Below are positions 16,311 through 33,619 of a stretch of 64,000 nucleotides of DNA, piece after piece. Below the pieces are notes generated by a model. It was not told the DNA's origin. It worked only from the letters and a program-made list of their open reading frames with translations, and did no database searches. Position 1 is the first letter of the stretch, and each line of letters starts with the position of its first letter. Source of the DNA: Paramacrobiotus metropolitanus (lineage: Eukaryota; Tardigrada; Eutardigrada; Parachela; Macrobiotidae); contig NW_026570336.1 of NCBI RefSeq assembly GCF_019649055.1, positions 248,001-312,000 on the forward strand, written 5' to 3'. Position numbers and translations under genes: made by a program.

Positions 16311-16661
16311 CCGCCACTACAAACGCCAAAGGACATGAAATCGTCGTAACCCTTATTACAAAAATTATAGGTTATCTTTGCGAAATAGGTAACGAGCTCA
16401 AAAAGCAGTATGGTGGAAGAGATTGGAAATTTGTTGAAAGCGTTAGCATAAACAAGTTCCCAAATGCATAGCGAGCATGATGCCATTGCCGATCAAAAGC
16501 AAATCTCCACTCTCCGAGTGATATTCTCTTAACAGGAAGTTTTGCTAGAGCGGTCTCGTACCGCTCATAGTGGCGTTGCTGCAGTCAATCGGCGCATGTA
16601 GCCGGCAGATCTATTGGCCTGTTGACTGTTGGCGAGCCCGGCAGGAAAGTGGCTTTTCTCC

Positions 16662-16795
16662 CATAGATCTGCCGAATTGCACCCACACTTCTGCCGACCC
16701 GACCCTATGCATTGTCTATGAGAACTCCAATAGATCAGCCGAACCGGCGCAACAGCGAAACTTGATATCTCTGTTGAGTGCGAGCCGGTAATAGC
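16662..16795 (+). repeat. Dispersed repeat R2, copy 1
   Basis: The block runs from ATAGATCTGCCGAA through a TATGCATTGTCTATG core and CCAATAGATCAGCCGAACC to GAAACTTGATATC. Further copies are at 17554, 17833 and (inverted) 18950. A shorter piece with CAGATCTATTGGC sits at 16608. Confidence 0.75.
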
Positions 16796-17066
16796 GCGCG
16801 GCTAGGCTGCATCATATACATTATACAACCGCATAAGCATATTGTATCGACACCAAGCAGAGAAAAGTGGGCGCTTTTCCTTCCACCCTGCCTAATCCTT
16901 TCAGAGGGGAGTTTCTGCGGTATGTGATTCATGCGCAGATTTCCACCGCAAAACAAAGTAAATTGTTGAACAGATTTATTACTCCAAATAACCACTTTTC
17001 TAACGCATAAGCTTATAATCTTCTGTGAATAGTGTATCTGTACATTAGGCTTAGACAGTTCTACTT

Positions 17067-17163
17067 AAAATTATCAGGCACTTTATTCGGCAATATGCAC
17101 TACACAACCGGCAATATGCACTACTGTATACAAAATTATCAGGCACTTTATTCGGCAAAATGC
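17067..17163. repeat. Short direct repeats, AAAATTATCAGGCACTTTAT type
   Basis: A 32-base unit with TTATCAGGCACTTTATTCGG occurs at 17067-17098 and 17132-17163. A partial GGCAATATGCACTAC copy lies between them. From 17410 to 17480 a low-complexity run of ACATAAAC units follows. Confidence 0.8.
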
Positions 17164-17553
17164 ACTATTTCGGGTAGCCTCTACATGCGCTGATGTAACT
17201 TTGAACGAACTGGAAAACGTTTACTAAAAAGCCAAGAGTACAGAAAACTCTGTGAGATTGAACAACTGCGAATATTGAACGCCCAGGCGGGAACGCCGCG
17301 TCTCGTAGGCTGCGAATGCCACTGCTAAAAGTGAACAGTTGCTTACATTGAATACTTTCGAAGGAACCATAGGTGTTCAAATTACGCAGGTTTTACTGTA
17401 CCTAAAATTTTTCCACAACATAAACAACATAAACCAACATAACAACATAAACAACATAAACGTTTTCCGCAACATAAACATATTGACCGTTTAAATGGCG
17501 ATGTCATGCAAAGTTTGGGCACCCAGAATTAAAACGCATTTTTTATACAACGA

Positions 17554-17690
17554 CCAATATATCTGCCGAACTGCACCCACACTTCTGCCGACCTGACCCT
17601 ATGCATTGTCTATGGGATCTCCAATAGATCGGCCGAACCGGCACAATAGTGAAACTTGACACTTCTACTGAGCGCAAGCAGCAATCAATA
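17554..17690 (+). repeat. Dispersed repeat R2, copy 2
   Basis: This is a close match to copy 1 over its whole length, including CTGCCGAACTGCACCCACAC and CTATGCATTGTCTATGGG. It ends with ACTTGACACTTCTACTGAGC. Confidence 0.75.
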
Positions 17691-17832
17691 GCGGCGGGCA
17701 GGCTGGAGCATCAGATGCAGCTGCCTAGGCTCCACCGATACCAAACTCGCAGAATATTCGCAACTCGTGCTCTTTATTAATATTTTCGGAAGTATCAAAG
17801 TATGTATTTCCGGAAATAGCATTATCATTCAG

Positions 17833-17960
17833 CAATAGATCTGCTGAACTATGCCAATAGCCCTGGCGACCCGCCTTATGCGTTGTCTATGGGCACTCCA
17901 ATAGATCCGACGAACAAGGATAACAATGAAACCTGATACCACTGTCGAGCACTAGCCGGC
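17833..17960 (+). repeat. Dispersed repeat R2, copy 3
   Basis: This copy is more diverged, with CAATAGATCTGCTGAAC, TATGCGTTGTCTATGGG and CCAATAGATCCGACGAAC. Confidence 0.7.
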
Positions 17961-18949
17961 ATACCGCTGTGTGTTAAATGAGTCTATACGTTCTTGTCAG
18001 ATATGACTATAGGTTTTACGAGCGCGTGTGCTTTTACGAGACTGCCTAATATTATCTTTAGTTGCAACTCTATTGTAGTTTGTACATGCAGTACATAGAC
18101 TGTTAGAGAAACCGCTGCAATTGAATTTATATATTACTCGTACGTGCACATGAGTATATTCATGGTCTTAGTTTTTCCATTCCAAAAAACTTGATTCGCT
18201 TTGTACCAAGGAAAGTTATGATATCAAGTTGATATCAAGCTAATATGTGGTTGATACTATATATATATATATAGTATTATCAAAGCACAAAATTTTTCAG
18301 TCGTCGTTTTGTTTGATTTTTCTTCTAGTGGTCCGGCACTTTCAACTCCCCGTCTGTATGGTAGAAAGCGGTCGATCAATTACATCGTGTCGATTGTCCC
18401 GTGTGACGTATCTGATGTCTTCAGTATGAGAACAGATGTTGTACGGTACTAAATATCCGGTATCCAAAAAACGCAAAAATTTGGAAAAAAATGCAATTGA
18501 TTGACAAATTACACCGCAAACGAATTGGAAAATTATTTTAAATATGAAGAAACATTTCTGGAGAACATACTAAAACCGCCAGAAGCAATTATACCCCAAA
18601 ACATATGTATCACTAGAACTAAAAAATATCCAATGCAAGCGGCTGAAATCCAAACTTCCAGATGCTTACCCTCAGTTTTGTCGGATATCGGATTGACCCA
18701 TGAAAATTTAACCAGCATACTTGTACCAAAACACCCTTTGATAACTTTCATTACTTCGGCATAATTAGAAATTTTGAAAGGTCAGTTTCTGCAAATTGAT
18801 GGATTGCAACCACTACAAGCCTTGCACGACAAAGGTGAACTGTCATCAACCCGGCGTTCTTAATTTTTTAAAGATCGCAAATTTCAACAAAGTGAGTTTG
18901 TCCACCGCAACCATTCCGTTTCGTTTGTCCACCGCAACTGTCGGACAAG

Positions 18950-19097
18950 AACGCATCGGCTCGTTGAGCAGTCACTAGTATATGGTATAGGGTTGTCATC
19001 ACGTCGTCGTTTGGCAGATCTATTGGAGATCCCATAGACAATGCATAGTATCGGGTCGGCAGGGCTATTGACGCAGTTCGGCCAATCTATTGCCGGT
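18950..19097 (-). repeat. Dispersed repeat R2, copy 4 (inverted)
   Basis: The reverse complement carries CAATAGATTGGCCGAACTG, TATGCATTGTCTATGGGATC and CCAATAGATCTGCC in the same order as copies 1-3. It ends about 265 bp downstream of the stop codon of the zinc-finger gene. Confidence 0.7.
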
Positions 19098-19361: not shown

Positions 19362-21152
19362 CTAATTGGCAAAAATTAATCTTGACATTAATACAGATCG
19401 TGCGCTTATCTGATTTTTTGTCGATAAAGGGCAAACCACACAGTGTGGGATGTCCTGTGCATGCGGCCCATCCGTCGGAGCCCAACATCGACGACAAACT
19501 TCCCAGCGCGCTTTCTGAAACATAAAACTTGCAGGTACACCTGCACTTTGTGAGCACTGCATTTTGTTATGTTCATCATACTTACATTGTGACGGGTGCG
19601 CACATGTTGTTCCATTTTGTTCCAATCGACTTTCAGCCCACACAGAGCGCACAGCACGTAGTATTCTTTTTTAGACTCCCTTAAGCGAAAAAATACAAGT
19701 TAAAAATTATAATTTGTACTGAAATTATAAAAATTTAACCAACAACAATTTTATTTTTTTAAACACATCTTAACTAAAACGCTCCCTTAAGAAAAGCAGT
19801 AGAATGCGCTTCCCCGGTTAAACAAAAATACGAATGTAAGTAATCTTGCAGTACGTTTATTACGCACATTTTATACTGATGAAAATCTTCATTACGAACA
19901 GCGGAATACACCCGGCATTTCGCACATCTATGTGTGCAGGGGCCGTGCACAGCATGCGGTGCTTCGAAGTCCAGCGGCTTTCTGATGCAGCTAAGTCCAA
20001 ACGCTCAAGGATTGCTTGGACCACCTACAAAATTAATTATGCCCAAACGTGTACAAAATTGGATGTCGACATCCACAACTCACGTCGAATTTTCCGCCTG
20101 CAGCGAATGGCCGAACCCATTGCGTGACATACTCTGTTGAATCTTGTAGTTTACGCAAAACTTTTGGGCGGAAATGCTCTTCTGGCAAGGCTACATCCGC
20201 AATAAACTTGGCGGGAGCCGACATCTTTTCCAATAACGCCGCGATGTCTCCGTAGTCGAACACAGTTGCTTCCATTGTGTACAGGAGCCGATAATATTTA
20301 ACACCAAGAGCGTTGAGAAATTGCTGTTCAGTTCTGCAGAGAACAAGCGGTTAACACCAGGAGGCTCAAATTAAAAAAATACGTACGGATAGGCGCTGAA
20401 TTTGACCGCTACGGCGTTAAGCGTTTGCAGCATACGCAGTTCTTTCCCCGTCAAAAAGATGCGGCCACCTTGTATCGCAAGTCTATGTAGTTCAGGGAAA
20501 CCGTCCATGAAAGCAACTGGCAAAGCTTAAAACACGTCCTCAACCCAGGTTGAGCGCAAACGGTCACCAGATCGGTCTGCACCGACCCCTCCCGACATGG
20601 CGGTCGACCGCCAATTGATATCGCCGCCTGAATTGATTCCACCAGTTTAGAGCTTTCTTTCTGCACTTCGTTCACCCAAGGCAGCTTGCGAATCGACTTC
20701 CACCCAGGCTTGTAAGGATGTTGACATACAACTGATTTAACTGAAAAAAATAATAGCATTTAAGTTAAATTTAAATGTAGTACCGGTTACTTTCGGCAGC
20801 TCGGACACAGTGACGTATCCTCGGACACAGTATCCGTATATTTCTGATACCAAGTCCTGGCCCTTTCTTCTTCTTTTTTCTTCTCTTTTTCTGCTTGGTC
20901 TTTTATCAAACTTTTGAAACATTCCGTGCAGATAAGGTTTCCGCAACAAGAAGTAACATTGTATTCTGCGGAGTCCGACGTCTGATGCATCATGCATTTG
21001 AATGTGTCATCAATGCGCTGCAAATGTTGCAACACAAATTAAAAAGCACTAACTATTATACACGTAATTAATAACGTTAATTATGATTGCTTCACGTATT
21101 TTAATGATACACTTACCACAGCCGCGCTTTTAATTTTCTTTAGATCCGCCAT
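19362..21152 (-). CDS. Zinc-finger/RING-like protein, 313 residues, seven exons
   Basis: A fully phased model was built from seven minus-strand exons: 21152-21117, 21017-20791, 20731-20676, 20516-20387, 20333-20084, 19675-19586 and 19514-19362. It totals 942 nt including TAG. The start is MADLKKIKSAAV. A RING-like module has C20-x2-H23, then CCGNLICTECF (36-46), a lysine/glutamate-rich helix and CPSC (83-86). The middle (AFMDGFPELHRLAIQGGRIF, TGKELRMLQTL) is unknown. The C-terminus has a C2H2 finger (CALCGLKVDWNKMEQHVRTRH, C242/C245/H257/H262) and a Cys/His cluster (CRRC...HCVVC, 270-291). Introns 3 and 5 (in transcription order) each contain one perfect TGnnnGTCGAC palindrome, the motif that fills the transposon to the right. 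A nuclear or ubiquitin-ligase role is possible but inferred. It may be cargo or an accessory gene of the same element family. Confidence 0.75.
20060..20075. repeat. TGnnnGTCGAC palindrome, site a
   Basis: TGGATGTCGACATCCA is a perfect 16-bp palindrome. It lies in intron 5 of the zinc-finger gene, eight bases inside the donor. The identical sequence recurs at 32931-32946. Confidence 0.95.
20598..20613. repeat. TGnnnGTCGAC palindrome, site b
   Basis: TGGCGGTCGACCGCCA is a perfect 16-bp palindrome in intron 3 of the zinc-finger gene, 538 bp from site a. Confidence 0.95.
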
Positions 21153-24100
21153 GTTTCCACTGTCACGACAAATGATTTTCGAGTACTGAATATTCAAACA
21201 AAAATTAAATTAACACCCGTAGTACTTCATATTAATAAAATCGCTGCCCGTGTAGCTTTATATTTATAAAATCACTAATTTACCAGACTAGAATTTTTTG
21301 GATACCGTGCTTATCCGATCGGATGACTTTGGCAATTTCTGGCTCGTACTCCTTCAACAATTCAATGCCCCAGAATCCAAAAGGTTGCAGTAAGCTGAAA
21401 TTTTAGAATACTGCCGCTATAATACCACCAATGCTAAGAAAACGCTTAGGTACGAAAACCTACGTTAAAGAAGATGAATATGCCGAATACAGAAAACAGG
21501 AAGAAAGTGCAGAAGGCAAAGCCGTACTTTCCGCGCCGGTCAAGAAATCAGACCCGTGGATTACATAATCATCAAATGCCACTGTGTCTCGTGCATGGAA
21601 AGCGCAATGCGCGACAGATGAGCGAAATAATAAATAACTGCACTAATGTGCATAACTGCTCGTTTACAGTTTGGCCCGGAAACAACGGTGCCACTATTTT
21701 TTCCTTCCAGTCAACGCAAAAAATTCAGTACCGGCTCTGTTTACAATATTAAAACTGACTATACTAACGTCTACAAAAATAAGTGCTGACATGAATCTAA
21801 AAGCACCGCTTTAAAAATTTCAGAATAATCAACTAGAAATATAAAATTCGAAGCTGCACAAACAAAGTATACTGTACATGTTGAACCATCTGATGTGATT
21901 TTCTAAACGAGCCGGGGTCCAGTACAGAGAAAACTGACTGCCAGCCACTGCATTAACATACACCTATTCGAAATTATTAATCCAAGCAAAATTTACTTCA
22001 AATTTACTTTAATTTAAACAAAATGTTGTTGCTTAACTGCTTTAGAAGTAGATTTAAATGCTTCAAAGTCGACTAATTATGATGTTACAATTTTTTAGTC
22101 AATATTACAGTATCAGACATTTTTGAAACGGTCATATTGATCGGCGATCTACCGAATATTTGCAGGCACTCAAAAGCCGACACATTCCACCAAGTGCGCT
22201 CGCACAAAAAGTTCAGCCAGTTAAGGAAACATGCTCCCGATCATTAATCATATAAATAACGCCGGATACTTTCCCTTCAGTGTGTCATGATACGGCAAAT
22301 GTGGTAAATAATTCACGAGACTTGACAATTGTCTGCGCACGCGATCCAACATAGAAGACACACTTTTTACACCGAACAATTACCACAACAAGCACTTACC
22401 AATACTCCAACACGTGGAAACCAGAAACCGCACGGTAATCCTGATGCATCCGAAAAACGCGTCTCAAGCAGTCAAATCCACAGTCATACAGTCTACAAAT
22501 ATTATTCCTTCCCCAGATGCTATACAAAAAGCAAAACCACATAAAAGGGCATTCAAAGACAAGTTTTATACAATGTTGTCAAAACGATGAACTCAATATG
22601 CAAGTCATACTGTAGAAGATTAAAACAACTTAGTGAAACTACATATCGGCACATCCGTGAATTTACAAGGGAAAAATTACAATGCTGATAGTAGAATATA
22701 GTGATAATGGTAACTTTTCGACCGATAAAAACGTGAATCTGGAGCGTTTTCAAGGAAATAGCTGCATGCTCATTCCGGTACACAACAACAGATTCAGCAA
22801 CAAACGCAATCATCAATAACGACCAGCCCAAGAGTCATGGCGTCACTCCATACATATAACCAAGCACTATGGAAGAGTGATCGCTACATTGGACAGTTTA
22901 AATATTAGTCAGCCAAATCCAATGCGGGGAAAATTAAACGAAAACACCTTTTTAAAAAAAAAATCAAATTACAGAAAAGCCGATTACTGTAACCGGTAAA
23001 AATAAATTATTGTATAAAACAATTTTAAAAAGTATAACAGTAGAATTTCAACAGTCTAAGCATTACAGTAAATCAATTTTACGGCACGAAACCAAATCGC
23101 AGAAGAATTACAGCAAGCAAATTATTTGACTTGAGGATTCAGTTTTAAAGCAGAATGCGGCGTCCTCACAAAAAATACCTCGGCTAAAAATAAACCAACT
23201 CATCAGGCAACCTTTTTTTTTATTTTCATTCTGAAAACAAAGGGAGAGTAACTAACAAGGACTTAAAGAACTACAATAAATTATTAGTCATTACTACAAA
23301 ACGTATGCGCTTGAACAAAAACCCAGTGTTACATAATCATTCCACGCATGCTGTAAATAATTTGCAAGACAAGCCCTTACAAAAATTTTCCGAAGACATT
23401 AATCGACAAATAGTAAAAAATTCGTAAACAATCGAAACCGACAAAACAATTCTTCAACTGCTCAATTGACTACTGACTAATAACAGTGTACGTTGTACAA
23501 CAACACTGGTGTGATGTGAGCGTTCAGATTCAACAGTAGATGTACAGGCTCAAAAGGTGAGTTCCGTACTTTGCAAGTCTCTGCGTTAGCAATACTTCTA
23601 CGAAAGCAAAGCTGAAAAACGGCAACACAAATCAAACAAACCTTTTGCTCCGCTGAATGCTGTTCACATGGACGTCGACCGAAACTTCGGCCTGTCAAGC
23701 TTAATCCCAGAATTAACCCACATCCGCTGACAGTCACCCGCTTGGACGACAACGACAAATTCTTCTTATTCCGCAGCAGTCCGTGTCGTCTCTCGCGCGC
23801 GCACTTGCTGATACAGATCCGCTGATACACAGATCGCTATTGCACAAGAACACAATTTAAATAAATCGTCGAATTGATCCACAATAAGGGCCCATAATGA
23901 TAAGAACTGTGGACAAATAATTAAACCAGAATCAGCTCAATTAACATGGAGTAGAGTACATCAACGGAAGTTCTTCGTTTGTGGCGTTGCGGAGAAAATC
24001 AATATGGCCGCTTACGTAGTAAGTACAGTATTTCTACTGCAGTAAAAACGTGTGTCACATTAACAGCTTACCCAATGCGGGTGGCGTGCAAGACTGCATT

Positions 24101-24400
24101 ACGCTGCCAAACCGGGTGGTTATGATTGCTTCAAGCACCGGAAGTTCTTGAATTTCTTTGGTTTTGAAAATTTATTTGGCAGTTTTGAATATTTCGTAAG
24201 ATAAAATGTAAATAAATAATTTAAATTGTCTAGAATTGCTAACACGAATGGATACATCGGGACTAATACGTTGCGTATCACGGAAACGATATTGTCAGTC
24301 AGTCGCCGGAATTAAGGGAGTGCTTTTTCGGGTATAATTTTGGCAAGTATCTGGAGCACTGGCTGAGTATGGAGCTGCAACCGGGTGCACAACTGTCGCG
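21153..24400. other. No gene recognised, AT-rich
   Basis: About 3.2 kb of AT-rich sequence between the zinc-finger gene and the satellite array. It has no TGnnnGTCGAC palindromes that I can find, no domain-bearing frame and no clear exon. It could be a separate insertion, or the noncoding end of the transposon. Confidence 0.4.
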
Positions 24401-24424
24401 GATTTACTAAAATTACTTAAGCTA

Positions 24425-25380
24425 ACCACAATGTTGTAACGTTACTTGCTCAGACGTAACCTGAGACTAGCGTAACCTAACGTAACTGAAGTAAATTACT
24501 TTACTTCAAAGTTTCTTGAGGTAACCATAATGTTGTAACGTTACTTACTCAGACGTAACTTTGGACTAGCGTAACTTAACGCATATTAATTAAATTACTG
24601 CACTTCAAAGTTACTTGAGGTAACCATAATGTTGTAACGTTATTTACTTAAACGTAACCTGGGACTAGCGTCACCTAGCGTAACCTAACGTAATCGAATG
24701 CAATCACTGTACCTCAAAGTTACTTAAAGTAACCGCAATGTTGTAACGTTAATTACTTAACGTAACTTGGGACTAGTGTCACCTAGCGTAACCTAACGTA
24801 ACTGAATTAAATTATTGTACTTCAAAGTTTCTTGAGGTAACCATAATGTTGTAACGTTACTTACTTAAACGTAACCTGGGACTAGCGTCACCTAGCGTAA
24901 CCGAAAGCAATTACTGTACTTCAACGTTACTTAAGGTAACCATAATGTTGTAACGTTACTTACTTAAACGTAACCTGGGACTAGCGTCACCTAGCGTAAC
25001 CTAACGTAACTGAATGCAATCACTGTACCTCAAGTTACTTAAAGTAACCGCAATGTTGTAACGTTAATTACTTAACGTAACTTGGGACTAGCGTCACCTA
25101 GCGTAACCTAACGTAACTTAATTAAGTTACTGTACTTCAAAGTTTCTTGAGGTAACCATAATGTTGTAACGTTACTTACTTAAACGTAACCTGGGACTAG
25201 CGTCACCTAGCGTAACCGAAAGCAATTACTGTACTTCAACGTTACTTAAGGTAACCATAATTTTGTAACGTTAATTACTTAAACGTAATCTGGGGCTAGC
25301 GTGACCTAACGTAACCGAATGCAGTTGCTGTACTTAAACGTTGCTTCAGGTAACTTAAGTGTGGTAACGTTACTGAGACT
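24425..25380. repeat. Tandem satellite, about ten units of 99-110 bp
   Basis: Each unit contains a variant of ACCATAATGTTGTAACGTTAC, followed by a CGTAACCTGGGACTAGCGTC-like segment and a TGTACTTCAAAGTTACTT-like segment. Unit starts (ATGTTGTAAC or its equivalent) are near 24431, 24530, 24629, 24739, 24846, 24945, 25053, 25161, 25260 and 25360. Spacing alternates between about 99 and 107-110 bases. Each unit has the palindrome GTAACGTTAC, or GTAACGTTAA in some units. The array ends 230 bp before the first gene of the CACTA-like element, so it could be its subterminal repeat region. Confidence 0.9.
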
Positions 25381-25604
25381 AAATATGATTCCGGAACCAG
25401 CCTAATCTAGCGTTACCAGTGAAACTACAGTACTTCAAAGTTACTTAAGGTGACCTTGTGCGGCACCAGCTGCGTATTATTACCCAAGAAACGCAAATAA
25501 AAACTTCACCAATAAGCGCAACCAAACAGACCTTGCTGCATTATAGCATATGACGTTACTACACGAAAATAAAAACAAGTAACAATGAATTCAAGTTCAA
25601 CAGT

Positions 25605-26149
25605 TCACATAAACCCTTTCTTTTTTGGCTTCTTTGGCTGCACAGGTTTTCGAACGACTTCCTCCGCTTTGGCGGATGGTCCGCAGCTATCCGCCTGCTG
25701 CGTGTCGACACGCAAATCGTTAGGTTTTGGTTTCTTTTTTTGGTGTTCAGATTCACCTTCTTCGTCGGAATACACGACGCCCCTAGCCGGACGAATAATC
25801 CGACAACGTGGTTTCAGTATGCTCATGCCAGGCTGGACACGCCATGCATCCGTTTTACGGTACTTGTAGTTAACAGTATCTGGAGCGGATGGCGGGACCG
25901 ATGACGAGGCGGCTGCGTTCAGTTCAACTGGATCGAACTCTGCCATCTGGCTGGCTGCAGAAGAAGGCGGCTCTGACTGGGCTATTCGAAAATGAGATGA
26001 ATTAAAATCATGTTAGTGAATCAAAGTTATGCTGCCATCACATCGCAAACAATAACCAACGGTGACATGCCTGTTGCCAGCTCAGACGATTTCACATCTT
26101 TCTGCGCGTCGACGCGCAAACTACTATCAGCGTTATTCTGACAATCCAT
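25605..26149 (-). CDS. Small charged protein of the transposon, 154 residues
   Basis: Two phase-0 exons: 26149-26057 (start MDCQNNADSSLRVDAQ) and 25976-25605. The product is hydrophilic, with an acidic patch (YSDEEGESEH) and a lysine-rich C-terminus (KPVQPKKPKKKGFM), which suggests a nuclear or DNA-contacting protein. There is no recognised domain. The exons contain two perfect TGnnnGTCGAC palindromes (25699 and 26103). Both encode LRVD in the same frame (LRVDTQ and LRVDAQ). The gene lies just downstream of the transposase gene on the same strand and is probably the element's third gene. Confidence 0.65.
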
Positions 26150-26588
26150 GATGACCGTCGACAGGACTTGTATGTTTACCAACTACATAAAAACTTAGAA
26201 CAATAAATTTATTACTTGAAAGTGAGGTAGACAAATTCTGAGTAGTGTAAACAACGAGAATGTGCGTAACTATCACCGAAAATTTGCTGCTGTCTTTTAG
26301 CAAATAAAAAAACCTCTCCAAGAGCCGGGCCGCGTAAGGGTGTCGGCTTTTTTGAGATTATAGTAGCCGACCCTTTGTTATCGGTGGGGACGCCCACACT
26401 CTGTTTCTCAAAACTATCCCCCCAGGTGGCGACTTGTTAGTTTAACTACTGCAATTACTCCGCAAAAATACAAGTATTAGGACATAATTTGCAAGCGTAA
26501 ATATTCGTATCATTGATCACCAGTTATTGCAAACAAATAAAATACGACAAAACTGGAAATATCTACTGCTTGTCGACAAGCAATACCG

Positions 26589-29124
26589 TTACATAATGTA
26601 CTGATTATTAGGAATAAAGACTGCGAAGGTAGGAAAATCAATTACTGGATCAATTATGACAACTGCATGGCGAAATATTGCAGACACATTAATTGCCACG
26701 CATTGTCGGCGTCGTAAGCATTTTCGAAAAAACTCAGGACTATCTCCATTAGGCAACTTGAAATTCTTAAATGCAACACTCGGAATGATGTCAACAACTG
26801 CTGCCAAAGTATGGGCTTCCGGGTTGTAGAAAAATACCAAGAGCTGTGCCACTTCCAAGGCGACAGTTTGGACCCAAGTATTGTTTCTTCGGGCTTTCCT
26901 CCCGTAGCCCCGACATTCGAAGGTCACGTTATCGTCGCGTACAACAGCGCTATAAAATCGAAGATTTCCTGGCATTTCTTCGGCGTTTAAAAAATTTATA
27001 ATAGCGATTTCCTCTCTGGATAAGCGGGCTGGTTTATCTGCAGGTCGACCTGCAAAAGTGTATTTTGCTCCATTAAAGCAGAGGCCATCTTTGGGAAGGT
27101 CATGCTCTGATCGCCGCAGTAATTCGATGTGCTGGTAATTACGTAGTATCTGTGTAATCACATTCGTGCTTCCGTGGACTGAACGGTTAAGTTGTCCAAG
27201 GAAGTCCTCTGGATAAAACGTAGACCAGTGGTACGCAGGGCCCCAGCTGCACAGGGCTTCGGCGAAATGGGCCAGCTGGTGGGTGTTGTAAAGCATTTTT
27301 CGCTTCCCGTATAAACTTTCGAAACGCGCGGAAAATTTTTCCACAAGTTCCGACACGATTTCGGAATGTCTCAAAAGACTTCCGTGATATAAGGTGTGGT
27401 CGGTTAGCAAAAGATGAACAGCCATCACAAGATCCATCAAATTTTCGTACAGAACGTGAGGGACATGGCCGTCATATACATAAAACGCGCCATAGAGGAG
27501 AAGATTGAGGTATTCGCTCCCATGGTAGTATCCACTCGCAGCAAGCGGTGTAATAGACCGTGAAAATTCTGCTGGGAATTTTATTCTTGAAATTTGGAGG
27601 TCGACCTCCACAAGGCGAGCGTTGTTTAATACTTTTTTTCTTTCATCAGACATTTCATTAAAAGCTGCCAAAGATTTCACAGAATCTTTCGTCCAATACT
27701 GAATAATTTTTTTCATTTGCCCCAGGCAAATAGCGTGAAGCACATCAGGGGGGCAAGACAAAGACGGATCGACTGAGTTTAGCCGCAATATTTGGGAAGG
27801 TCCAATGCAGCCTTTAACTGGGTGCCCAGTATGGACTGCATCTTTCGATGATTCCCGATACACGGATTTTATTTTTAAAGGAAATCCTCCATTGACAACA
27901 GGATAAACGCGAACGCCTGCCACGATTTCGCCAGGATGGATGCAAAAGGTACAACCGTATTCTGCCTGGTACGATACATGAAGCATCGCATCCATTCTCG
28001 CAACGGCATCTGCGATAAATATTGCGGGGATAATTCGGAAATCATTGTGTGTCGACACACAAAGGCGCTTGCACTCGGTCGTAAACAAATGGAGCAATAT
28101 CTGCGAATTCGGCTGAACTTTACCCACCGCTACCGCATACAGAAAGGGGCGACGATAGCGCTTTCTTGACGGAAGTTCGTTGATCAAAAAATCAAAAATC
28201 GTAACAGAGCCGTTTTCACTGCCACCAATACCGAAGACGTTCCCGGAGTCCATATGGAAGGTAATTGTTAAGTCAGACGCCTCAAGATCGAAGTCCTGGT
28301 ATCGCTTGCCATCTTGAATGTCCAACATCTGCACATCACGCCGCTTCCTTTCGAATAATTCTTTTTTATTTTGTTCCAGACCGAGGTATTTCTGAATGCT
28401 CTCGAAAATAGGAAACACGTAAAAAACACCCCCCATCTCCTCCAGATCTTTTTTCGTGATGCGAGTCGACTCGCAGTCTGCACTTGCACAAAACAACGGT
28501 TCCAATAATGATGAATCTTCCCCAACATAATTTCCGTGGACAGGACAAAAATAGTGTTTCTGCGGAGGCAATGAGTGTGGCAGCAAAAATTTGTCCAGTT
28601 TATATAGATTTTCAGGAAAATCTTCTCCCGAAATAGGACCGAAAAACTTTAGCATCGCATCTTGCTGTATGCCAGACATCCGATGCTTCCGTGATATGCG
28701 AAGAAATGATATTACTTTCTCAAAGGTGCTTTGTCTTTCGACATGTACGAGCAGACTCAAATCTGGCGTTGCTTCAGATTGGACTTCAGATTCCAAGCCA
28801 GTAATAACAATCCCATTTTGGTCGTAGTTCGCTAAAACGTGGCTGCATGTAGACATGCACTCTCGCCCTGCGATAACCTGATAACACGTAACAAAATTAC
28901 AAGTAAGCAAAAACCGATATTTAAAAAAAGGAAACAAATAAAAACATTTTCCCAAGATCAGTCATTCCTTTTTTGTTTACCTCTGAAGATTCCTGGAGGT
29001 TCCGATAGTGCTCAACAGCAAAGCGTGGGAAAGCGGCAGCTCTTCGGCGATAATCCGAGCTTTTGCTCAGGCTCTTTTTACCAAAAATGCGGTCTAGGCT
29101 TGTAGTTCTTTTGGAGCGAGACAT
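26589..29124 (-). CDS. CACTA/Tnp2-like DDE transposase, 810 residues
   Basis: Exon 1 is 29124-28981 (MSRSKRTTSLDRIFGKK, 48 codons) and exon 2 is 28877-26589, phase 0. After a zinc-ribbon-like region (FCPVHG near 159; LFCASADC near 178-183) come the expected landmarks of EnSpm/CACTA-type transposases. These are TFHMDSGNVFG (first Asp about 258), IADAVARMDAML with GCTFCIHPG (second Asp about 338), DVLHAICLGQMKKII (about 426), and YHGSEYLNLLLYG (Glu about 503). The segment NTHQLAHFAEALCSWGPAYH (from 579) matches the conserved helical insertion region. No internal stop is present, so the enzyme may be active. Four perfect palindromes and one degenerate one are embedded in the coding sequence. The neighbours are the divergent BEN gene and the downstream charged-protein gene. 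Confidence 0.85.
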
Positions 29125-29647
29125 CAGTGATTTTTAAACTCTGAATGAGTGATCAAAAATGAACAACAGACAATCATCTAAATAAACAAGCAAATATGCA
29201 GCTTTTGTTGTAACAAGCTTGCATGTCGACATGCACATTTAGACCGACGCCAGTAAAGTTACCATACATTTGAGACAAGGTCATAAGACGGTGGGCGACA
29301 ACTTATCGTTACCTTTCACTTGAGTTCTGCTTTCTTATTGGTACATTTTTGGGTCGGCTGGTTTTATGCCATCTGCCATTGGCTCTCTTTAAAAATTTAA
29401 ACGTAACTATAGTGGTTTTTTTAAATTTCCCACTTGTTGAGCGTTGTCTACCTGGACAAAGAGTTTAGTGTTGAAGTTCACGGTTTTAGTAAAAAAATAA
29501 TCTAGGAATCACTTTCAGATGATTTCTGAATTGTACAGATACAATTGTTGTTTAGTGGCTGTCGACAGCCAGTGTTTTTTCTAAAATTTTGTTTGTGACA
29601 AAGTCTCACAGGTGTAATAACTCCTAGGCTTCTCGCAGTTAAACACC

Positions 29648-32600
29648 ATGACAGGCGAGAGAAAGCTGCGGGACCGGAAGGGCATGTCCATGGAAGAGCA
29701 ATCTGAAGATCCCAGCGTTATGGAAAGAGATGAGATCCACCGTCGACATGCTGAACGAAACGGTACACTAGCTGTTGTTTAGCCCGTTTTCAGCGCTGTC
29801 AGTTTAGTTACATCTGAAGCGTTTACTGCCCGTAGGCCGGAAATTTATTCGGCATTGCTTTGACGTTTCATACTTAAGCCTAACCATGCTTCTGTTGGTC
29901 TAAGTAAGATTCCGGTTAGATGGTACTGAATTTTTGCCCAACGCGCCATATTTAGTCGATCAGGTTTGCCTGTCGACATGCATAGCGAAGGATGATAAAA
30001 TTTGAATATCTATCCAGAAGTGAAATTCTCATTATCAAAGCGGAAACGTTTAAACCAGTAAATTTTCTAGTGGCAGTTTCAACGATTTTCGGCTGCATAT
30101 TTTTGTGTGCATGTCGACATGCAGTACTATTCTTCCAGATTTTTTGGTCGTTGTGTTTGAAAGCGACAAGATTCCTATGGTCCTGCCAATGAGCAAGTCC
30201 GCAACCAAAGCAGAGTGGGAACTTTGTGATGGCTACAATTACGGAGAATTTTTGGAGCCGGGTAATTACATTAGCGTACGCTATAAGCGTGAAGGCAACG
30301 CCAGGCAATTTTACGATGCCGAAGTCGTGTTGGTTACCGATGTCAAGGAGGATGCGATGGCGCGTTTCAATTCACTGAAGCCGAAAAGCGCAAAGGTACT
30401 GAACATAGGAACTAATGATGTTAGTCGACTTCCAAAAATATCTGTCGGTATTCCAGTTCTGAATTTAAAATTTAGAAAAGACAGCAGTTAACGCCATCGA
30501 AACGTGCTGCCGCAGATGCACTTTTGAATGAAATCGACAATTCAGGCCAGGAACAGGATTGTGTTTCCGGCGGGTTTGAAGAGACTGGGAAGTCTGCTTG
30601 GAAGTTTAACCCGTTCACCGGAAAGCCTGTCGACGGTATCTAATTTGCATTGGTTCTAGTATTACTTTGTTGAAGGTCGACCTTCATAAAATGATGTTTT
30701 TATTTGCAGCTAAACGTACGAAAACTGGTTGGAATTCTGAACTCCAGCTGAATTATAAAACGGACAGTAAATGCATCCGAATAATTACTTTGTTTTAAGC
30801 ATTAATTAAGTGTTTGTTTGCTGATATTTTTAATGACATTTGATGGAATATAACCCCATAAATCGTAAATAAGAGATTCCTTTTAATGTAAAATTTGCAA
30901 GCGTAGTTTTGTAACGTGAAGGTCAACCTTCAACCATTTCAATTAAAAATATAAATATGGCTCTCCTCCTCTTGCAGATTCCCGCGGTGGAACTCCAGCT
31001 TTGCAGAAAAGCACGATTAAAATTTGGCAGTTCCCAGATACCAGCTCCGACGAAGGCAAATTATTATTATATTATCATTTCTTAGCGTAGTCCGCATTAA
31101 TTCTGCCTTAGATGAGACCGCACGAGTGAAACGTACGATCGCAAAGAACAATGCCAAAACAAAAACCGGTAAGCATCTGGATAAACCGAATAGCAAATTT
31201 AAATAACCAGACGAACGGGTATGCTTTAATTTAACATTATGTTGAGACTGAAGGTCGACCTTCAAATCATTTTCTTTAAATTTACAAAAAGCGTAAAAAT
31301 AACGGCGATTGTTTTCAGGGGAAATGTGCTCTAATCGGAAGCTGATGACTGAAGGTTAGCCCTATCAATTAAGCGAATTGTAAGCGTTAAGAAAAATTTT
31401 CCAGATCTTACTTCCAAAGCTCAAAATCAGCGAAGCAATCAAGGTTCAGATGAAGGTAAACATCGAGTTGATTTACAAAAATTCCTCTTTGATTTGAATG
31501 CTTTTATGCGTTGTAAGAAATGGTACTGCACACATCAAGAATTTAATGATTTTATATTGCATAGCAATACTACACGGATAATTTTACAAATCATGTCGGT
31601 CGACCAAAAGTTTGCAATTAGGTGACTTAAATTTCAAATCAGTATTCACTTTTATGCGCAGACGTCACAGCGGGCTATTACGGCACTTCCTCGGAGCAAC
31701 CGCAACGAATCAGCCAGCAGCTCCCACAAAAGGTGTCAGAATATGGACGTAAGTGAATGATTGTTCTTTAAAAACGTGAAGATTTTCAATTAACATTTTC
31801 AGCAAAAATAAATCATAAAATGCACACCATTGTGCAAATGTAAACGTTTTCTCCAGAAAACCTGCCAACAAACAAACCTAGCAGTGGGGAATTGCTTGTT
31901 AAAAAGGATGGTTTTAATGTATACAATAATGTCCATTTACTGGTTTGCAGGATTCGGGTCGACCCGAAATAATATGGTATCTGTGCACCCTTACTTCAAC
32001 AAGCGCAGTAACGGTAAATTGTTTATCCTGCGTTCTCTTCCTTTTTTTGTTATTTTTCTTGTAGGGCAAAATTTTAAAAACCAATAACAGCTGCAATCTT
32101 TGCTACAGAGAAACGTGACTTTTACTCTTTCGATGACCAGAACGCTTCATCCAGCAGCAAAGCGGAAAGCAGCGCCGTTGGAAAGACCGCACCTCTCATG
32201 GGTTTGCCAAAAGAACAGCACTGCGAGCAAGGTATCTCAGTTTTTCCCAGACAGGTGTTCGTAATTCAGTAATATAAATTTTTTTATTTGTAGATCGTGC
32301 TGGTGGCAAGCAAAAACGCTTCTCAGCGATGCCAGAAAAGAATAAAAAGCCACGAAAAGGTTTATATTCTTTATTTTAGAATTCTTGATGTCGACATCAA
32401 AACAGTACGGTATCCTTTCAGAGCGTACTGAAGAACAGAACCTGCTGCTTGCCAAGCTGCGCCGACAATGGCGCGCACGTACGTCCGATTCAGTAGAGCT
32501 GTTTCCTGGTTCCGGGTATTTCCTACCTGCCGCCCGGTTCCAGAATTTTAAGGTCAACTTAACTCCAGCTCGCCTGTTGATTGATGCCGTAAACCTGGCA

Positions 32601-32924
32601 TTGCTGTTTTTTGGATCTGAAGAAAACGTTCTGCTGCTGTTTACCGGGGACCGCTTCGGGTTAAAGCATGCATTTGGAGCCGGTCTGCTGGGAGATGTTC
32701 TGGGTAATCGCTCTCATTTAGGCTAACGCTTAAATGAGTCAACTGAAATAATATTCTCCACATTCGCAGGTTACATCAATCAGTATCACCCAGGGATCCT
32801 AGCAAAGCGTGCCAGGCCTATTAAAGAGCTCGAGTTGCTGCAGGCTTTCAGCCGGAAATTATACTATCTCCGCAGCAAAGAGTCTAAAGGTGATCAGTCG
32901 GGATATGTCGCGGATTTGGAATAA
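29648..32924 (+). CDS. BEN-domain protein of the transposon, 563 residues, 15 exons
   Basis: A fully phased model has exons ending or starting at 29648-29762, 30139-30395, 30488-30635, 30710-30766, 30978-31055, 31091-31168, 31319-31354, 31405-31455, 31662-31748, 31857-31910, 31951-32013, 32109-32231, 32294-32359, 32380-32703 and 32770-32924 (1692 nt). Exon 2 encodes a compact domain (LVVVFESDKIP, then NYISVRYKREG and FYDAEVVLV), like the N-terminal module of some BEN proteins. Small exons 3-13 encode a charged linker. Exons 14-15 (residues 405-563) encode a BEN domain, with FLPAARFQNFKVNLTPARLL, LALLFFGSEENVLLLFTG, DVLGYINQYHP and RKLYYLRSKE. BEN domains bind DNA and mediate protein contacts. 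Thirteen of 14 introns are phase 1 and one (31056-31090) uses a GC donor. Exon 3 could instead start at 30476. Confidence 0.85.
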
Positions 32925-32946
32925 TGAATTTGGATGTCGACATCCA

Positions 32947-33619
32947 TGATTTAAGCCTGCTAATATGGCATTAATGTTGACGTGTTATGCAGTTAATGGT
33001 TGTTACTTTTATGTAATGACCTTTTCTATTTTCTAATAATCTTGTCAATTTACTTTACATTTATTGCAATTCTTTGTTATCCAAATCGATTTTTTGTCTA
33101 CGTTATCTTGTTTTTTCATGAGAAATGATGCCGTGAATGTTGGGTTTTTTATGTAAAACCAGTTATGTGGTATATGCCGAAATAAATATAGTTGATATCT
33201 AAACATGCATATCGAAATCGGTCATTTTAGTATAAACCAAAGAATTATTACATGATCTTTAATATCTACATTTAATTAAAAAGTTACCATTAAAGTATAT
33301 CATAATTCTGACAAGGGACCGTCACCGCAGTATGCCGGTACGCAGCCCGGCAACGGCAGTGACGCCGTGCAGGATTACAACACACAACGGAGCTGCAGCC
33401 TCAACGCGCCGCAGTGCTAGTTTAGAATTGTTCTGGGCGATAAGGGGATCGTTAGTACAGTGTCCGGGAAGTGGCCAGTTAAAATATAACCACAGACTGT
33501 CGGCGTGCTGCATGCTCTTCTCTAGGCTAATGAATGTTTGTACTTGCATTGTGACACTTATTAAAGCACTCGTACCTAAGCCGTGCACTTTCCTACTTAT
33601 AATTGATTCTGTATAATTT
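32947..33619. other. No gene recognised
   Basis: AT-rich sequence after the BEN gene, then a short GC-rich patch at 33315-33420. The right end of the transposon is expected in or near here, but I could not identify an inverted repeat partner. Confidence 0.4.

Follow-up and report, generated by a model that had tools for sequence, protein, structure and literature searches.

A regular array of two-fold symmetric sites along a DNA transposon of the tardigrade Paramacrobiotus metropolitanus

The array and the genes it crosses

The window analysed here is a stretch of 64,000 nucleotides from Paramacrobiotus metropolitanus (assembly GCF_019649055.1, contig NW_026570336.1, positions 248,001–312,000 of the forward strand). 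It contains a DNA transposon with an open transposase frame, a multi-exon gene and smaller frames, and along most of this element short palindromes recur at rather even steps. The palindromes were found by a scan for GTCGAC together with near-matches to TGNNNGTCGACNNNCA that have complementary inner triplets. They are numbered from the right-hand end of the element, as follows.

S1, 32931..32946: TGGATGTCGACATCCA, perfect
S2, 32385..32400: TTGATGTCGACATCAA, perfect, with TT/AA ends
S3, 31953..31968: TTCGGGTCGACCCGAA, perfect, with TT/AA ends
S4, 31594..31609: decayed in the window; outermost pair imperfect in copies C19 and C122; centre GTCAAC in copies C57, C19 and C122
S5, 31249..31264: TGAAGGTCGACCTTCA, perfect
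S6, 30917..30932: core GTCAAC, perfect arms
S7, 30671..30686: TGAAGGTCGACCTTCA, perfect
S8, 30419..30434: two mismatched pairs in the window; perfect in C57, C19 and C122
S9, 30108..30123: TGCATGTCGACATGCA, perfect; CAC/GTG arms and a changed core in C122; one-sided changes in C57 and C19
S10, 29967..29982: one mismatched pair
S11, 29556..29571: TGGCTGTCGACAGCCA, perfect
S12, 29220..29235: TGCATGTCGACATGCA, perfect
S13, 28844..28859: core GTAGAC, perfect arms
S14, 28460..28475: TGCGAGTCGACTCGCA, within the transposase frame; homologous site in family B
S15, 28046..28061: TGTGTGTCGACACACA, within the transposase frame; family B counterpart a few bases off at most
S16, 27595..27610: TGGAGGTCGACCTCCA, within the transposase frame; homologous site in family B
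S17, 27039..27054: TGCAGGTCGACCTGCA, replaced by TGCGGGTCGACCCGCA in C57, C19 and C122 (paired substitution); homologous site in family B
S18, 26567..26582: TGCTTGTCGACAAGCA, perfect
S19, 26103..26118: TGCGCGTCGACGCGCA, perfect
S20, 25699..25714: TGCGTGTCGACACGCA, perfect, within the charged-protein frame
S21, 20598..20613: TGGCGGTCGACCGCCA, perfect
S22, 20060..20075: TGGATGTCGACATCCA, perfect
S23, 19530..19545: core GTACAC, perfect arms

The window holds 17 perfect 16-bp palindromes with a GTCGAC core, where 40 first-order Markov simulations of its sequence gave a mean of 0.025, and 25 perfect 16-bp palindromes with any core against a simulated mean of 1.2. Between 25,699 and 32,946 there are 15 perfect GTCGAC palindromes, 13 of them with TG..CA and two with TT..AA ends. 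The imperfect sites of this interval lie at 29,967 (one mismatched pair), at 28,844 and 30,917 (changed core, perfect arms) and at 30,419 (two mismatches). The initial annotation had described about 19 sites here, 15 perfect, three with one defect and one with two, mostly with TG/CA ends and with a chance expectation far below one, all of which agrees with these counts. It had overlooked a decayed twentieth site at 31,594 and, to the left of 25,699, two perfect sites (20,060 and 20,598) and one with a changed core (19,530). The 20 sites from 25,699 to 32,931 have a mean spacing of 381 bp (standard deviation 102, coefficient of variation 0.27), close to the first estimate of 400 bp, and gaps of 141 to 556 bp; no arrangement as even came up in 20,000 random placements.

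Six perfect sites (25,699, 27,039, 27,595, 28,046, 28,460 and 32,385) and two imperfect ones (30,419 and 28,844) lie inside the open frames of presumed genes. By position this bears out the six perfect sites and one degenerate site first placed in coding sequence, with 28,844 as an addition, and also the statement that the sites ignore exon, intron and intergenic borders. The element and its features are listed below.

19438..33317, minus strand: DNA transposon, family A copy, right end at 33,317 (CCCTTGTCA on the minus strand)
26589..28961, minus strand: transposase open frame, 790 amino acids from stop to stop
29649..32870, plus strand: multi-exon gene, its C-terminal domain putatively BEN-like; exons near 29,649, at 30,140–30,400, at 32,380–32,720 and from about 32,769, the limits being approximate and set by eye
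25605..26012, minus strand: charged-protein open frame, confined to family A among the loci fetched
20787..21038, minus strand: RING-like zinc-finger open frame; Pfam matches below the curated cut-off; relatives in family A, in C76 and, weakly, in family B
24409..25374: tandem array of units of about 99–108 bp, rich in GTAAC/GTTAC, filling part of the site-free gap between S20 and S21

Repeated blocks also align among C57, C19 and C122 within the same site-free gap. No left end was located for the window copy; homology to C19 runs to about 19,438.

At ±1 to ±5, no clear dyad surrounds twenty GTCGAC hexamers taken from outside the element or from two relatives without the array; the control counts of this hexamer include five inside the element that are not sites. 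Chance and simple repeats are ruled out as the origin of the array by these controls, the simulations and the spacing test. An origin of the sites as small mobile insertions is likewise ruled out, as the transposase frames remain open with sites inside them.

Conservation among copies and families

A protein search of the genome returned three close long copies of the element (C57, C19 and C122, 72–76% identity), others lying near 45% and below. These three, chosen by protein similarity, form family A together with the window copy, and their transposase frames are open (761 amino acids in C57, 767 in C19, and 762 in C122, counted to the limit of the DNA retrieved). The sites follow one another in the order of the window, with inner triplets that mostly agree place by place; the comparison covers S1–S20 in C122 and S1–S22 in C57. 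The proportion of sites in which all six arm pairs match is 20/23 in the window, 20/22 in C57, 19/23 in C19 and 17/20 in C122. Absence of the sites from other copies, which had been named as evidence that would count against the array, was thus not found. Between the window and C57, 13 of 320 site bases differ (S1–S20, after mending of a MAFFT misplacement of window S5; the raw figures for window pairs are 23–27 of 320), against 550 of 1,430 bases (38.5%) in the 40-base flanks, and both counts come from related copies and so are not independent events. Letters at each place are close to frozen between copies, and it is between places that the inner bases differ; the drift of bases within sites that the initial annotation had assumed is not seen. 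Half-site shuffling by recombination was considered as well, but the order of triplets is identical in the four copies and no shuffling was seen.

Restriction of the array to the element was examined with pattern searches of the whole genome. For TGNNNGTCGACNNNCA there were 363 plus-strand matches, against 236 for a reversed control. The 50 of the 363 that were listed (contigs C1–C9) contain 23 perfect dyads, all of them in eight clusters, and 27 imperfect matches, four of them from the same clusters and one more, C1:2823393, from a transposase relic. The pattern TGSNTGTCGACANSCA gave 118 matches against 5 for its control, and the 50 of these that were listed include a few isolated places, e.g. 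C21:782923 and C27:887312; GGAGTCGACTCC gave 74 against 4. A genome-wide background of such palindromes was not seen among the matches listed. Equal density across the genome had been proposed as the pattern to look for if the array did not belong to the element; with at least 23 perfect dyads, all clustered, among the 50 listed of 363 matches, the element-bound array is supported. As for the relic, it spans C1:2823211-2824099, is interrupted by stops and holds an S16-like site, TGGAGGTCGACTTCCA, that has lost one pair.

Nine short elements of about 2–2.5 kb, with longest frames of 79–159 amino acids, also carry the sites. They resemble the long copies in nucleotides only near the S1-side end and have no match to the element exons, and each keeps five to eight sites (at most two mismatches to the rule) with arms GAT, CAT, GCT and TCG. 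In group g1, the pair L007/L014 shows 1 difference in 80 site bases and 495 in 1,827 other bases, and L007 differs from groups g2 and g3 at 9–14 of 96 site bases and about 47% of the rest; since exact matches to some of the palindromes served to select these copies, part of the contrast follows from the selection and the apparent conservation is inflated. Retention of the sites in copies so poor in genes indicates that the array seems to be needed in cis, rather than for a gene.

A second family, B (C46, C214 and C105), has a transposase 42–44% identical to that of the window. Its copies contain 23, 21 and 26 GTCGAC, respectively, in about 17 kb each, against 2.8–3.0 expected, and its dyads are shorter than those of family A, mostly 10–12 bp. 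In a codon alignment of the two families, three sites occupy precisely matching codons, their reading phases being 2, 0 and 1, and a fourth is out of register by no more than a few bases. With three reading phases and such divergent proteins, it is the DNA that has been conserved, not the protein. At these four places two of the pairs at ±1/±2 differ between the families on both sides, and none on one side. Family B copies differ from each other by 2–4% in core and arms and by 5–12% elsewhere, although the contrast is small for the closest comparison (C46/C82, core 4.2%, elsewhere 5.8%). Beyond one end of a family B copy, in C46, tandem units of about 47 bp with TCGAC-like words occur (L017:7366-7735).

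Two further relatives lack the array. C76 has no dyad array and 4 GTCGAC in 16 kb, while C11 has no dyads and a modest excess of the bare core (6 in 9 kb, 1.4 expected), one of them at the place of S17. A motif search of C76 and C11 gave nothing comparable to GTCGAC in families A and B, the strongest word being ACAGTA (24 against 7.7 expected, in C76). The distant relatives L025-L030 have 0–2 GTCGAC each in about 2 kb, a sample of DNA too small for a verdict.

Symmetry of the sites and its possible readers

Pairing within sites was compared with the level expected if the two halves were drawn independently from the observed base frequencies, using 40/41 sites from four loci for family A and 51/52 from six loci for family B, flanking GTCGAC included. 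In family A, complementary pairs at ±1 to ±5 number 35, 33, 32, 32 and 35 of 40, where 15.7, 13.9, 11.5, 28.2 and 32.5 are expected. At ±6 only 4 of 40 are paired against 11.3 expected, and 0.003 of shuffles were as low. Family B shows 46, 44 and 30 of 51 at ±1 to ±3 (expected 20.4, 28.1 and 17.5), followed at ±4 to ±6 by 10, 7 and 6 of 51 (expected 14.4, 13.5 and 12.8; given without a P value). The excess within and the deficit just outside indicate that dyad length is fixed within each family. With pairing far above the marginal expectation, a model of two half-sites bound independently and additively is rejected as a full account, and selection for two-fold symmetry, as first suggested, gains support as far as the constraint is concerned. 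We conclude that the sites form a cis-acting array under selection at the DNA level, with local two-fold symmetry as its rule, and something seems to depend on the symmetry itself. Whether this amounts to a symmetry code, in which tiled sites need self-complementarity across a fixed span (16 bp for one family, 10–12 bp for the other) and most of the paired letters are free, is a tentative proposal to which we give about one chance in three. If true, it would imply a reader of base-pairing symmetry, be it a stem-loop, a cruciform, a self-annealing strand or a symmetry-locked dimer; no signal of this kind is known to us in any transposon.

On the nature of the reader, we favour, with about even confidence, a symmetric (homodimeric) protein acting on duplex sites and most likely encoded by the element, over stem-loops or cruciforms. 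On this view the transposon brings along its own cis array of putative binding sites, the palindromes, which would be recognised in duplex form by a homodimer with two-fold symmetry, for which the BEN-like or the charged protein are candidates. Seated about every 380 bp along most of the element, such a protein might coat or condense the DNA, and might thereby bring distant ends together, keep host chromatin silencing off, or both. The short dyads of family B, the palindromic core and the constraint on DNA favour this arrangement. Ordinary additive binding does not account for halves that match while their letters are nearly free; we assume a dimer that requires both halves in the same conformation.

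Several observations weigh against the protein. An ordinary additive dimer would not require the halves to match, and the central CG, the most variable part of the site (8 changes in 46 columns, with none in 46 for the closing G/C), suits a stem-loop at least as well. Changes at inner pairs are mostly one-sided: between the window and C57, 5 of 60 pairs are changed on one side and 1 of 60 on both; the figures are 4 and 2 for C19 and again 4 and 2 for C122; and among the latter three copies themselves there are one or two one-sided changes and no two-sided one. The compensatory variation of the initial annotation therefore stands in part. A clean paired replacement is present at S17 (CAG/CTG in the window, CGG/CCG in the three other copies) and a second at S9, between the window and C122 and along with a core change, but one-sided changes are commoner (5 against 1 in the comparison with C57), and it is chiefly the comparison of places that speaks for symmetry. 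The BEN-like protein is an uncertain candidate. None of five members has a Pfam match at E≤10, the best match of its profile in the PDB is the BEN domain of NAC1 at E 0.45 beside two dehydrogenases at E 0.8, and its fold prediction was poor (predicted local distance difference test, pLDDT, 38). BEN-like genes were also found in the array-less relatives C76 and C11. On these grounds the BEN label is weak and should not be leaned on.

Stem-loops or cruciforms come second, and we regard them as unlikely, at somewhat over one chance in five. In this case a 6-bp stem (TGNNNG/CN'N'N'CA) with a TCGA loop would form in single-stranded or extruded DNA and be read by its shape, so that stems of any sequence would do as long as they pair. 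The constraint does fall on pairing more than on letters, and pairing ends at a fixed length, below expectation just outside. Asymmetric centres are shared while the arms stay paired, namely TCAA (S4 in three copies, S11 in two) and ACGA (S9 in three), and the short groups g1 and g2 share the centres TTGA and TCGT. Among the four long copies, the only arm asymmetry common to two or more is the outermost pair of S4. Taken together, the shared asymmetric centres, this single shared arm asymmetry, the variable CG and the undepleted CpG make the long copies favour stem-loops; methylation-driven decay of CpG as the cause of the variable centres is unsupported, the ratio of observed to expected CpG in the window being 1.13. 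The short copies point the other way. In g2 an extra site of the TCG type shares arm asymmetries at ±4 and ±5 (three copies) and at ±1 (two copies), and g3 has shared arm asymmetries at ±3 of a TCG-type site (L013 and L015) and at the outermost pair of a CAT-type site. The middle inner pair, moreover, is changed in 7 of 46 columns. The 10–12-bp dyads of family B would give stems of just 3–4 bp, and dyads so short sit uneasily with a cruciform; the loop, too, is a palindrome, a property for which a hairpin has no use; and a RAG1-like transposase implies no long single-stranded phase. Subterminal motifs of CACTA elements have been described as able to form stem-loops, in the available text of that study (PMC2613891).

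The rest of the weight is spread over chromatin phasing, RNA, mutation and other causes. As a chromatin ruler, with the mean step of 381 bp near two nucleosome repeats, the sites would phase nucleosomes on the element. The even spacing fits, as do the several sites within 2–2.5 kb in short copies, but the gaps range from 141 to 556 bp and are altered between copies, and the dyad would go unexplained, so that we hold this improbable, at somewhat under one chance in ten. Hairpins in transcripts of either strand, read by an RNA-binding protein, are slightly less probable still: a palindrome folds alike from either strand and some sites do lie in open frames, but the sites disregard exon, intron and intergenic borders, they are kept in short copies that have neither a long frame nor a match to element exons, and the 15 sites listed with one mismatch show no clear excess of G-T. 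That mutation rather than selection makes the symmetry, through template switching in which one arm is rewritten from the other, a known process at quasi-palindromes, is very improbable, because it predicts paired drift at about the neutral rate where both-sided changes amount to 1 of 60 inner pairs between the window and C57 beside a flank difference of 38.5%, and because GTCGAC outside the arrays has no clear dyad.

The transposon and its place among known elements

Homology among the copies ends at window position 33,317, and three long and nine short copies share the terminus CCCTCGTCA with small variations. Six of the nine short copies are flanked by 3-bp A/T duplications read by eye (TAT, TAT, TTA, AAT, TAA and AAT), two have unmatched flanks, and for one the right end was not located. 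The transposase has no Pfam match, and its profile gave at best E 0.53 against PDB sequences. An AlphaFold2 model covering 26,592–28,859 (best of five: pLDDT 75.4, predicted template modelling score 0.79; pLDDT of the other four 59.7–63.6) was compared at the level of fold. All 33 Foldseek matches in the PDB at E≤0.001 are RAG1 or HzTransib, and VIA-align superposes the model on RAG1 with Z 19.4 over 456 residues (root-mean-square deviation 4.8). Model residues of about 598–745, at the C-terminus, match the BAH domains of DNMT1, TNRC18, ZMET2 and ORC1 in VIA-align (Z 9.0–9.6), with E 0.055 and weaker in Foldseek and no match in Pfam. The predicted fold thus matches a RAG1-like core with a C-terminal BAH-like domain, and the latter region may be a chromatin reader within the transposase.

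The CMCT clade unites CACTA/EnSpm, Mirage, Chapaev and Transib, whose transposases have C(2)C and H(3-4)H motifs between the second D and the last E, according to the available text of PMC12730594. Motifs GCTxCxH and HQLxH, visible by eye in the transposase alignment, fit this description, and the 3-bp target duplication of the short relatives fits the 2–5 bp given for the clade. The termini, 5'-CCCTCGTCA, lack the 5'-CA..TG-3' ends stated for most cases, and so the element is not classed as a classical CACTA transposon.

CACTA (PMC2613891) and VANDAL (PMC5735166) elements have been described as encoding proteins that bind motifs repeated within the element itself, and the comparisons here extend to the available text of those papers. 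CACTA/EnSpm elements, such as soybean Tgmt* with TnpA-like proteins (PMC2613891), are alike in belonging to the same broad transposase clade, judged by fold and motifs, in their 3-bp target duplications, and in having many short, family-specific cis motifs, some of them capable of forming stem-loops. They carry direct or inverted copies of one motif in their end regions, whereas the sites reported here are single palindromes over most of the element, coding sequence included, with arms that are specific to each site and kept as dyads. VANDAL elements with their VANC proteins (PMC5735166) are alike in having a dense, element-specific array of motifs whose form varies by family. VANC motifs, however, are mainly non-coding, often tandemly repeated, in one orientation and not palindromic, and the function of VANC is loss of DNA methylation, whereas CpG in the window is not depleted (observed/expected 1.13). 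The BEN factors NAC1 and BANP (PMC11472053) are chromatin-linked and bind palindromic motifs, BANP needing oligomerisation, but those palindromes are fixed in their letters, and the element protein is weakly linked to the family.

RAG1, Transib and ProtoRAG elements are comparable through the superposition of the transposase model on RAG1, the BAH-like domain of the model being extra; no internal array of this sort is known to us in them. In the open-access full text of PMC, no dyads with free letters tiled over a transposon were found, as judged from titles and the starts of abstracts among the matches listed. Binding-site arrays inside transposons are known, and, as far as these searches show, arrays kept in symmetry but free in letters, running through coding frames, were not found in the open literature.

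The array is of a type shared by families whose transposases are about 43% identical, and its reader must be sensitive to whether the two halves of a site agree, a demand that ordinary additive recognition of DNA by protein does not make. If the model holds, the combination of a RAG1-like core with a BAH-like domain makes a link between chromatin and mobility testable, and the short gene-poor copies, at about 2–2.5 kb, are ready minimal substrates.

Two further repeats lie near copies of the element. Just left of the element in the window, at 16,660–19,092, a repeat of 82–126 bp is present in both orientations, and it also adjoins the short copy L011. The last ~580 bases of L004 (C19:1018900-1019480), near the right side of C19, contain an inverted repeat spanning ~550 bp.

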